Source of the DNA: Ashinkailepas kermadecensis
Lineage: Eukaryota > Arthropoda > Thecostraca > Neolepadidae
Direction: 5' to 3'
NCBI GenBank assembly: GCA_034440615.1
Contig: JAOTOM010001622.1
Coordinates: 1 to 64,000 of the forward strand
Length of the DNA stretch: 64,000 nt
Shown here: positions 29,149 through 34,872 of the stretch, piece by piece
Layout of the letters: every line of letters begins with the position of its first letter
Position numbering within the stretch: the stretch's first letter is position 1
The notes under the pieces: model-generated
Databases searched by the model: none
The model's input: the letters and a program-made list of their open reading frames with translations, nothing else
What the model was told of the DNA's origin: nothing
Position numbers and translations under genes: made by a program

Positions 29149-29233
29149 ATGCGGCTGTCCGCGGTGCTGCTGCCGCTGCTGGCCGCCTGCTGCTCGCTGG
29201 TTCTGGCAGAGCCGGCCATCGGCAACGCACCTG
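29149..29233 (+). CDS. Hub gene exon 1: signal peptide
   Basis: Encodes residues 1-28 plus the first base of codon 29. The charged Met-Arg start, the Leu/Ala/Cys core and a likely cleavage after ALA-type residues VLA (20) are typical of secretion signals. It ends at CACCTG before the strong donor GTGAGT. Reading on without splicing goes into low-quality sequence. An in-frame ATG lies upstream at 29,107 inside the minisatellite; the 29,149 start is preferred because it places the hydrophobic core at the N-terminus. Confidence 0.7.
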
Positions 29234-32251: not shown

Positions 32252-34872
32252 ATATATATATAAATACATATATATATATCCTAAAATATATATGTATATA
32301 TATAGATATACAAATCAATGCACATGTCATCCACAAACAACGTGAACAGGTGGCATTGCCGTACATATAGAAAACTAGGTGATCACGCCGCCCCGGTAGC
32401 CCAGTTGGTTAGAGCGCTGGCATACAGTTGGCATAGAGCGCTGGTCTCCCTGTCCTGGCAAGACAGGGTTCGAGTCGCTTCACGCACTCGCATTTATCCA
32501 CCGGCTGGGAGGGTCAATTAGCAGCTGGTCCGATAAGGCCGGGGACGAGCTACCGGGCGGACGTGTCGGTGCACTGCTGGCGAGTTGAACTATCGGTGCA
32601 AATTCTGACGTTGAACTCTAATTCATGGAATGGCTGGTGGGGCCAGGATTCACGCAACAAGCTCTGCTTAGCAATACGACCCCGGTCCATAAAGCCACCC
32701 GAGAAATAATTCGGACCAAATAAAAATTGCAGGGTTGCAGTCGTACGCTATTGACAACATGATGCTCGAGTTTAACGCGCCCCGGTGCTGCTCCAGGCGA
32801 CTCACTGACCCGAACCTGACGGCGTTCATGATGGAGACCATCGGAGACCTGGTGCATGGGCTGGACTACCACAAGTTCTACTTCGACCACCGTAAGTGCC
32901 ACAGCTCTGCTCACCGGAATAACTGAGACAACATTGGTGCGGAGGAAGCGAGTTAGGGAGAGGAAGAACTCCTCCCACCCCCACCCGCTAACTAGTCCTC
33001 TGACCTCCCTGGATCACAGCATGTGAGGAATAAGCAACCTCAGAGGCGCGAAATGAGCCACAGATTCACCTGAACCTGGGTGCAGACAGAGGTTTCGATC
33101 TACTAATTCATGGGATGATCCGCGGCGCCGCGCCCCCCCACACCCAAAACCCCCCACACAGGGGAAGACCATCGCACTGCGGCAGACCCCCCCACCCCCA
33201 ACAGAACCACCGACACGTGGAAGAGACACAACACAGGGCCCCCTTGGAAGGGCAGATCCACCGACACTGTGGAAGATCCACCGACACTGTGGAAGATCCA
33301 CCGACACCGCAACAGATCCACCGACACTGCGACAGATCCACTGAAGCTGTGACAGATCCACCAATGCTGCAGCAGATCCACCCTGCAACAGACCACTGAC
33401 TCCGCGATAGATCCATTGACTACAGCAGATCCACCGAAGCTGCAACAGATCCACTGAAACTGCAACAGATCCACCCACGCTGCGACATATCCACCGACCC
33501 AACTACAGAACCAAAAACGCTGTGGAAAACCTGCAGAGTTATAACAGACCCACCGATGTTGCGGCAGATCGGCCTACGCTGCAGTGTATTTATAAACGGA
33601 TGCACTAATGCTTCGTCAGATGTACTGCCGCTGCACGCTGCCCATACAGAGAAATAAAATAACTTAAAATAAAGTAAAGCAGGATAAAAGAACGACGAGC
33701 GGAACTTCGCACTCAATCATGATCTTCGAACTGACGGAGTAGCGTGCGCTGAAACGTCCTCCCCGTGCCGGAGACAATGACCTGTGTCACACGTGTCGAA
33801 GACAATGGCCTGTGTCACCCCTGCCGGAGACAATAGCCTGTGTCACCCCTACCGGAGACGATGGCCTGTGCTACCTCTGCCGGAGACAATTACCTGTGTT
33901 ACTCGTGCCGCAAACAATCGTCTGTGCTGCCCGTGCCAGAGACAATGACCTGTGTTATCCGTACTGCTGATAGTGCTGGGAAGGCGGATCGGAAACGCAA
34001 CCATCGTCAGCCCTCATGTGCGGTTTCTGGGAGACGACGTCGCCTACGTCGCCTACGTCCGACTGGACCAGTTCTTGGACAGGTCAGGACAGGACAGGAC
34101 AGAACACGCGTTTGCGTACTCAGCTCACACACTTCGAACAAATATTACGAGCAAGTGAGAGGGAATATGGTGACGAAAGCTGCTACAAAGATCAAAACTG
34201 AATGCAATGGTGTAATTCGGAATGAAAACATGGTAGCAATGTAGTAAAAAAGCTCTTCATACTTGAAGTGCGCTAGAGTCTGGTCGGGACAGATCGAGTC
34301 GCTCCTACCAAAGTATTTCATCTATTTAAGAGAGAGAGAGAGAAAGAGAGAGGGAGAGAGAGTGGATTGGCAGGGGTTCGTACCAACTGGTAATTAACTC
34401 CCACGATATTAACTACAGCGATATTAACTCTCGCGACATTAACCCACGCGATATTAATTCCTGCGATATGAACTCCCGATATATTAACTCCCGCGATATT
34501 AACTCCCGCGATATTAACTCCCGCGATGTTAACTCATGTAATATTAACTCCTGCGATATTAACTCCCGTGATTACCGTGCTGGCAGACATGAATGTTATA
34601 CTGCAGATGGGAAACGTTTCACCTGATGTTGCTCCGGATTTTCTGTTCATATCCAACAGTTCGGTCGAACCCTTAATTCTTGAAGTTCCTGTCTTTCGGA
34701 TTCGTTGTATTATCGTGCTAAGGCTCTGGTAACTTCACCTATGTGCCACAGCGACGGCAAGCCGCACGAGCTGCACACCGAAGAGACCAGGATCTGGCAC
34801 CGGAGCGACGGCGCGTGGAAATATGTGCACGGCCACCGCTCCAGAACGTCCAACAACAACTGCCCCAAATAG
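29149..34872 (+). CDS. Secreted, kinase-less CaMKII association (hub) domain protein, five exons
   Basis: Exons 29149-29233, 31332-31419, 32797-32891, 33974-34082 and 34752-34872 join into 165 codons plus TAG. Every intron is GT-AG, and the junction phases (1, 2, 1, 2) agree throughout. Residues 1-20 are a clear signal peptide ([20 protein letters not shown]). Residues 33-157 form one complete CaMKII_AD domain of NTF2-like fold, about 125 residues as in the kinases. Hallmarks are [58 protein letters not shown] and [19 protein letters not shown]. In CaMKII this domain assembles kinase subunits into 12-14-mer rings; here no kinase or calmodulin-binding segment precedes it. Sequons NLT (64-66) and NAT (97-99) fit passage through the ER. 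The mature chain has a single Cys (163). The function outside the cytosol is unknown. Internal exons are certain by homology; exon 1 rests on signal peptide, donor and phase. Confidence 0.85.
29534..29829 (+). mobile_element. Family I TIR element in intron 1
   Basis: Left end CAGTGGCGCAGCCATGATTT and right end GCCCCCTTGGCTGCATGTG, the latter mutated. The body contains CTTTCTCAATCCGAAAGCTT and the GGCGCGCTTCGTGCGCC palindrome. Confidence 0.75.
30009..30243 (+). mobile_element. Family II TIR element in intron 1
   Basis: Starts TAGGGCCGGATCCTGGAATT and ends TCCCCCTCCGTATCCGG. The body includes GCACGAGAGCACACTAAAGG and GGCACCTTTTCGTCTCAAGG shared with the other family II copies. Confidence 0.75.
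30244..30804. other. Intron 1 sequence, nothing further recognised
   Basis: Between two inserted elements the intron has ordinary AT-leaning sequence without exon-like or repeat features that I can identify. Confidence 0.4.
30805..31001 (-). mobile_element. Family I TIR element in intron 1, inverted
   Basis: CAGAGGCGCAGCTAAGGGGG at the left and GTCCTGGCTTCGCCACTG at the right are the family I ends in inverted order. The body holds AACCAAAAGTGTGCTAGATC and the GGCGCACCTCGTGCGCC palindrome. Confidence 0.8.
31332..31419 (+). CDS. Hub gene exon 2: first helix of the hub
   Basis: The acceptor is GTTGTTGCAG and the donor GTAAGT at 31,420. It encodes residues 29-57 plus two bases of Val58. The sequence [20 protein letters not shown] parallels the RKQEI...TEQLI...NGD start of CaMKII association domains. 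Unspliced, a TAA follows at once, which supports the donor. Confidence 0.85.
31420..32107. other. Intron 2, left part, nothing recognised
   Basis: Non-coding intron sequence without inserted elements that I can name. Confidence 0.4.
32108..32300. repeat. (TA)n microsatellite in intron 2
   Basis: TATATGTATGTATATATATA-type sequence followed by an almost pure TA run and then interrupted TATATAAATACATATATA. Confidence 0.96.
32386..32500 (+). repeat. tRNA-derived sequence in intron 2
   Basis: GCCCCGGTAGCCCAGTTGGT and TAGAGCGCTGG form a good tRNA 5' half with A box; ACAGGGTTCGAGTC contains a B box. Between them GAGCGCTGG is duplicated (GGCATACAGTTGGCATAGAGCG), which disrupts the anticodon region. 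The fold is therefore not a functional tRNA; it is a SINE head or decayed tRNA copy. Confidence 0.6.
32797..32891 (+). CDS. Hub gene exon 3
   Basis: Encodes residues 58-89 plus one base of Leu90: [20 protein letters not shown], then [12 protein letters not shown]. The acceptor is TGCTGCTCCAG at 32,796, chosen over the TTGCAG sites at 32,732 and 32,740. Only this one keeps the frame from exon 2 and gives a gap-free alignment to the family. The donor is GTAAGT. Confidence 0.9.
33233..33510. repeat. 15-bp minisatellite in intron 3, about 17 copies
   Basis: The unit is GATCCACCGACACTG with variants such as AGATCCACTGAAACTGCAAC. On the minus strand it translates to repeats of SVDL/QWIC type. Frames of 100-160 codons there are artefacts. 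Confidence 0.93.
33755..33958. repeat. 29-30-bp minisatellite in intron 3, about 7 copies
   Basis: The unit contains CGGAGACAATGACCTGTGTC followed by ACCCCTGC. It ends about 15 bp before the acceptor of exon 4, so the last unit contributes to the pyrimidine region of that splice site. Confidence 0.92.
33974..34082 (+). CDS. Hub gene exon 4
   Basis: Encodes residues 90-125 plus two bases of Ser126. [20 protein letters not shown] then [16 protein letters not shown] match the LL...TTILNPHV.V.GED.A.IAYIRL.Q segment of CaMKII hubs, with two residues fewer after LL. The acceptor is CTGATAG (modest pyrimidine tract) and the donor CAGGTCAGG. Minisatellite sequence lies directly upstream in the intron. 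Confidence 0.9.
34328..34365. repeat. (GA)n microsatellite in intron 4
   Basis: GAGAGAGAGAGAAAGAGAG followed by AGGGAGAGAGAGTG. Confidence 0.9.
34388..34572. repeat. 15-bp minisatellite in intron 4, about 12 copies
   Basis: The unit is GATATTAACTCCCGC, with GATGTTAACTCATG-type variants. Confidence 0.92.
34752..34872 (+). CDS. Hub gene exon 5 with stop codon
   Basis: Encodes residues 126-165: [20 protein letters not shown] then [37 protein letters not shown] is the signature last strand pair of the association domain. The acceptor is CACCTATGTGCCACAG. TAG is at 34,870-34,872. The tail after HRS differs from kinase hubs and overlaps the first unit of the 55-bp array. Confidence 0.92.

Follow-up and report, generated by a model that had tools for sequence, protein, structure and literature searches.

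The 64,000-nucleotide stretch of Ashinkailepas kermadecensis DNA analysed here (contig JAOTOM010001622.1, positions 1 to 64,000; hereafter the window) contains a five-exon gene that appears to encode a secreted form of the CaMKII association domain, or hub, without the kinase. We consider it probable, at about 0.6, that the gene is functional and dedicated to a kinase-free hub of CaMKII type, and that its product passes into the secretory pathway. The spliced plus-strand frame comprises 498 nucleotides (165 codons and a stop) and is free of internal stops; the junction phases are 1, 2, 1 and 2, and every intron border is GT-AG (Table 1). The acceptor of exon 4 was placed at the AG at 33972-33973, because the alternative AG directly before GCGG destroys the frame. 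In the frame of exon 2, no ATG separates the hub from the last stop codon ahead of it, and a protein that contains the whole hub therefore needs a further exon for its start. An earlier note, made from the DNA alone, had proposed five phase-matched exons that encode a signal-peptide-like start and one full CaMKII association domain; the frame and the Pfam match described below bear out this model.

Table 1. Features of the window, counted from its first nucleotide (nt, nucleotides; bp, base pairs; ORF, open reading frame; CDS, coding sequence)
Feature	Position	Strand	Description
Exon 1	29149..29233	+	Start codon, 20-residue signal-peptide-like stretch, then EPAIGNAP; phase 1 donor GTGAGT
Exon 2, 88 nt	31332..31419	+	Hub start, first helix region; phase 2 donor GTAAGT
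Exon 3, 95 nt	32797..32891	+	Hub; pocket His83 (alpha H395), lateral-contact Tyr82 and Phe85; phase 1 donor GTAAGT
Exon 4, 109 nt	33974..34082	+	Hub; pocket Arg119 (alpha R433), lateral-contact Gln122 (alpha Q436); phase 2 donor GTCAGG
Exon 5, 121 nt	34752..34872	+	Hub end; pocket Arg139 and Arg155; tail RTSNNNCPK, stop TAG
63-bp minisatellite	28880..29121	+	3.8 copies; ends 27 bp before the start codon
55-bp minisatellite	34837..35167	+	6 copies, 96% matches; the last 36 nt of the CDS form the start of its first unit
Apparent segmental duplication	38130-40660 / 42450-44950		Similar ORFs
tRNA-Pro (AGG) genes	40495-40566 and 44816-44887		In the duplicated stretches; equal Rfam scores
GDSL/SGNH ORF	62211-63134	-	Transposon-type; 71% identical to a JGI metagenome contig protein
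Long degenerate tandem repeat	19108-21048	+	Open frames coding GLLCNPG-like peptides
Long degenerate tandem repeat	51159-52064	-	Open frames coding GLLCNPG-like peptides

The Pfam family CaMKII_AD (PF08332) matched residues 34-157 with 126.5 bits (E = 9.4e-37; curated cut-off, 22.1). The match spans profile positions 1-126 of 128, and the domain is therefore complete. The related models DUF4440 and SnoaL_3 hit an overlapping region and score far lower. Among the sequences of solved structures, 19 distinct matches were obtained at E values up to 0.001 (best, 6.1e-38); they are named CaMKII or CaMKII hub, apart from a few 'predicted', 'hypothetical' or CAMK-type proteins. The CaMKII_AD match is far beyond chance.

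The hub is 43% identical to that of human CaMKII delta over 127 positions, whereas four other animal hubs are 69-78% identical to it (Priapulus, 73%; the sea slug Elysia, 69%; thrips, 78%; a fragment with a CaMKII-like linker, 70%). A tblastn search of the window with kinase-plus-hub fragments of sturgeon, narwhal, bat and vole, which lack the kinase N-lobe, recovered the hub exons and found no kinase exon (best non-hub E value, 0.27). These results bear on the possibility that the gene is an alternative product or the 3' end of a CaMKII kinase gene, with kinase exons outside the window and an accidental exon 1. The entry in phase 1, the RK at the hub start and the four hub exons do resemble CaMKII. 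In a planthopper, four exons likewise code for the association domain (PMC6627886), an agreement in the number of exons. The divergence of the hub, the tblastn result and the loss of most of the acidic groove described below argue against such a kinase gene, and we regard it as quite improbable. The canonical CaMKII of the species is an unlikely identity, given the divergence and the lack of any kinase exon match in the window, and the gene is probably not the ordinary CaMKII of this animal. The claim of a hub without a kinase is upheld in so far as the window has no kinase exon matching these queries; it extends to the window and to the parts of the kinase that the queries cover.

The case for secretion begins with exon 1, which encodes 28 residues and has an A at -3 relative to the start codon. 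In the 31.3 kb upstream of exon 2, exon 1 was the sole candidate under a rule (ATG, signal-like peptide and strong phase-1 donor) that was devised post hoc with exon 1 already known. The same scan gave no candidate in the reverse complement and none in 19 of 20 first-order Markov sequences, the remaining one giving two. The best 11-residue hydropathy of the N-terminus is 2.64. A second hydrophobic segment of membrane type is absent, the 19-residue hydropathy of the mature part being 0.82 at most, and the C-terminus, examined for a retention signal, reads CPK. The -3,-1 rule describes the residue pattern ahead of a signal-peptide cleavage site, and V-L-A ahead of the predicted cut fits it.

This N-terminus could instead be an uncleaved anchor that holds the hub at a membrane of the endoplasmic reticulum type, perhaps recruiting kinase subunits. 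Such a protein would resemble alpha-KAP, a CAMK2A isoform of vertebrate muscle that combines a membrane anchor and a normal hub. The query N-terminus is hydrophobic, alpha-KAP itself is a precedent, and hub-only proteins with hydrophobic N-termini exist among the relatives. A hydropathy of 2.4 in the first 35 residues was passed by eight of 122 relatives; three are kinase fragments and were set aside, and the remaining five, all predicted from fish, have the hub alone behind a signal- or anchor-like segment (Solea, P0057; Mugilogobius, P0046; Poecilia, P0106; Coregonus, P0047; Larimichthys, P0065). The query shares this layout. Unlike the query, the fish proteins have hubs 83-89% identical to that of human delta, with both usual cysteines, and they are unverified predictions. 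The fish proteins may represent an unstudied secreted or membrane isoform. The cleavage-like pattern stands against an uncleaved anchor in the query; moreover, with most of the groove lost and 43% identity to delta, mixed rings with kinase subunits are less likely. We therefore take an anchored, alpha-KAP-like hub to be distinctly unlikely.

The residues kept and lost in the hub were compared with those of 121 of the 122 relatives (P0001-P0122), namely 33 metazoan-type and 88 other hubs. The labels 'metazoan-type' and 'arthropod' denote sequence signatures wherever a name is absent. The end motif by which the hubs were excised requires two His in the C-terminal strand, and the invariance at these positions is partly built in; the relative left out, P0112, has Tyr at the first of these His. 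Residue numbers follow CaMKII alpha with R469 as the anchor, and the remaining named residues then land on the letters expected. Residue roles are those given in the papers cited.

All four pocket residues, H395, R433, R453 and R469, are kept as H83, R119, R139 and R155, as they are in 121 of 121 relatives. In CaMKII alpha the same four residues bind analogues of gamma-hydroxybutyrate (GHB); ligand binding is lost in R433Q and R469Q and falls to 7-9% in H395A and R453Q (PMC12148480). Since the pocket residues are intact, the small-molecule binding shell suggested in the earlier note would be a reasonable role. The vertical dimer contact keeps five of six residues (PMC11199487); the sixth, H420, is Arg, as in 83 of the 88 bacterial-type hubs. 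The lateral ring contact, made by the F394-Q436 pair and hydrophobic patches, is identical at five of nine residues (V389, F397, Q436, L438 and P444) and conservatively replaced at the other four (F394Y, L385I, I434L and L415V) (PMC11199487). Tyr at 394 is present in none of the 121 relatives. A ring-forming hub, as had been claimed, is plausible with most contacts kept; assembly into a ring is predicted from these residues.

A different pattern was found at the acidic groove (E355, E359, E390 and D393), which is proposed to dock the calmodulin-binding element (PMC4859805). In the query these positions are T, N, H and D, so that one of four is kept. The hub has no cysteine; each of the 121 relatives has one to five. 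Most of the groove and the free thiols of the hub are lost, and the pocket and most of the contacts are retained, a pattern that would be expected of a secreted, kinase-free hub. The proposed entry into the secretory pathway is thus backed indirectly by the cysteine-free hub and the degraded groove, secretion itself being a prediction.

Conservation was also examined at the level of selection. The GC content at third codon positions is 0.81, against 0.48 for all intron bases. The majority residue is kept at 26 of 33 near-invariant columns, defined over 123 other hubs, against 36 of 94 other columns (Fisher p = 8.6e-5); when the columns that had served to excise the hubs are dropped, it is kept at 21 of 27 near-invariant columns (p = 3.7e-4). 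When neutral evolution by substitution alone was simulated to 45% identity, 61 of 2000 runs stayed stop-free. These three results point to selection, short of proving expression.

Several observations weigh against a functional, secreted, ligand-binding hub. Seven of the 33 near-invariant residues are altered (I361F, Y369F, E381M, P382M, F394Y, T412A and F467G), and E381M and P382M strike the EPEA motif. CaMKII delta has all four pocket residues, yet it does not bind the GHB ligands tested (PMC12148480); an intact pocket is hence no proof of a ligand. The signal peptide is a rule-based prediction from hydropathy and the -3,-1 rule. Two glycosylation sequons fall at N97 (alpha 411), in the lateral contact, and at N64 (alpha 376), near T378 of the vertical contact, and a glycan at either could hinder assembly. 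We rejected the sequons as evidence for secretion, since 53 of 121 other hubs bear at least one (6 of 33 metazoan-type and 47 of 88 others, one or two each). AATAAA is absent within 1.6 kb of the stop codon. Finally, a close orthologue was not found among eight single-sequence matches (of 79 candidates; best identity, 49%) and the 120 listed of 5238 alignment matches (of 8000 scored candidates), both searches reaching sequences that share exact short words. Nor did these matches include an orthologue with the signal exon, the absence of which the earlier note had named as grounds for giving up its reading.

A pseudogene or unexpressed relic would account for some of these points. The altered near-invariant residues and the missing AATAAA would fit such a relic, as would the minisatellites that touch both gene ends. 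However, the open frame, the consistent splice junctions, the third-position GC content and the preferential retention of conserved sites speak against decay, and we find a relic very doubtful.

The origin of the hub was approached by a tree of 48 rows, comprising the query, 16 of the 33 metazoan-type hubs, 28 of the 88 other hubs and three PDB hubs; rows were chosen after redundancy filters, the other hubs being the first 28 of 56. In the free tree the query joins the metazoan CaMKII hubs (support, 97/92) outside a clade of 18 others (96/84), with a very long branch of 2.45 and a bootstrap that had not settled. In six approximately unbiased (AU) tests, a sister position to Elysia-type, arthropod-like, priapulid, vertebrate, bacterial or algal hubs was unrejected (p = 0.35-0.54).

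It is worth considering that the protein did not arise from CaMKII, but is an old or horizontally acquired stand-alone hub like those of planctomycetes or algae, since supplied with introns and a signal exon; such an origin is compatible with secretion. The highest identity within the tree set, 50%, is to a bacterial-type hub. Of 22 diagnostic columns, 15 fit neither group, five match bacteria and two match metazoa; log-odds summed over the residues favour the bacterial-type set (-22 bits). In the AU tests, neither a bacterial (p = 0.352) nor an algal (p = 0.411) sister is rejected. The free tree, with the reservations given, places the query elsewhere, and the RK at the hub start and the four hub exons are as in CaMKII. 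GTDB genomes hold 196 loci that encode relatives; in the 80 analysed, whose titles name 78 planctomycetes, one Gemmatimonadaceae and one 'bacterium' only, no convincing signal peptide was found, the single one that passed the threshold doing so only via an upstream TTG start. We consider this origin unlikely, though worth keeping in view. Viral contigs gave 21 pattern matches and no relative.

Minisatellites and remains of transposons abound in the window. A Pfam scan of 20 ORFs gave matches to reverse transcriptase and to transposon-type GDSL/SGNH only. The observed-to-expected CpG ratio of 0.81 argues against a typical methylated vertebrate genome. The units of the 55-bp minisatellite repeat the last coding bases including the stop codon, and the region of the start codon resembles a further degenerate unit of the 63-bp minisatellite. 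The remaining features lie away from the gene (Table 1).

For the secreted, kinase-free hub that we favour, the following course may be proposed. The signal peptide would be cleaved after Ala20, and a 145-residue mature hub would be released or retained in a secretory compartment. The mature hub would dimerise via the conserved vertical contact, and the dimers would probably join sideways into a ring via the largely kept lateral contact. The conserved His/Arg/Arg/Arg cavity may be a binding site for a small anion, in the way that the same four residues of CaMKII alpha bind GHB analogues (PMC12148480). The product would then serve as an extracellular multivalent scaffold or carrier without a kinase. 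Both ring assembly and ligand binding are inferred here from residue conservation. A bolder and tentative version, which we think unlikely as a whole, is a dedicated, fast-evolving family of extracellular hubs that form a cysteine-free ring of CaMKII type, parted from the kinase early in the evolution of animals or before it, and act in a body fluid or secretion as multivalent carriers of a small anion.

Work on the CaMKII hub treats it as the core around which a cytosolic kinase assembles. If the proposed reading is true, the gene would separate the requirements of assembly and ligand binding in the hub from those of kinase control, and it would serve as a natural experiment on an independent role of the pocket. 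In the titles and abstract starts of the literature matches listed, a secreted animal hub is not described. Judged from the sequences compared, the architecture has parallels, none of those compared having a diverged, cysteine-free hub.

Among known systems, iota carbonic anhydrase has a related, CaMKII_AD-like fold, and some of its members carry targeting peptides, directed in diatoms to the endoplasmic reticulum and chloroplast (PMC6776030, PMC8395977). The query might then be a secreted single-domain enzyme and not a scaffold. However, these papers give an (H)HHSS motif at the domain end as the mark of the enzyme, and the query has HGHRS. This identity was rejected on the motif and is scarcely credible; PMC6776030 did not find the enzyme in animals. 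The stand-alone hubs of planctomycetes and Chlamydomonas (6of9) share with the query a single hub, the pocket residues and Arg at alpha 420; they keep the EPEA motif and cysteines, and the hub of the query has neither. Alpha-KAP and the query share a kinase-less hub behind a hydrophobic N-terminus, and the query departs from it in its diverged hub and its cleavable-looking signal. Set beside the usual PF08332 hub, the query differs in its signal-like N-terminus, its lack of cysteines, its mostly vanished acidic groove and the lack of any kinase exon match in the window, and has in common with it the complete domain, the H/R/R/R pocket and most of the ring contacts.

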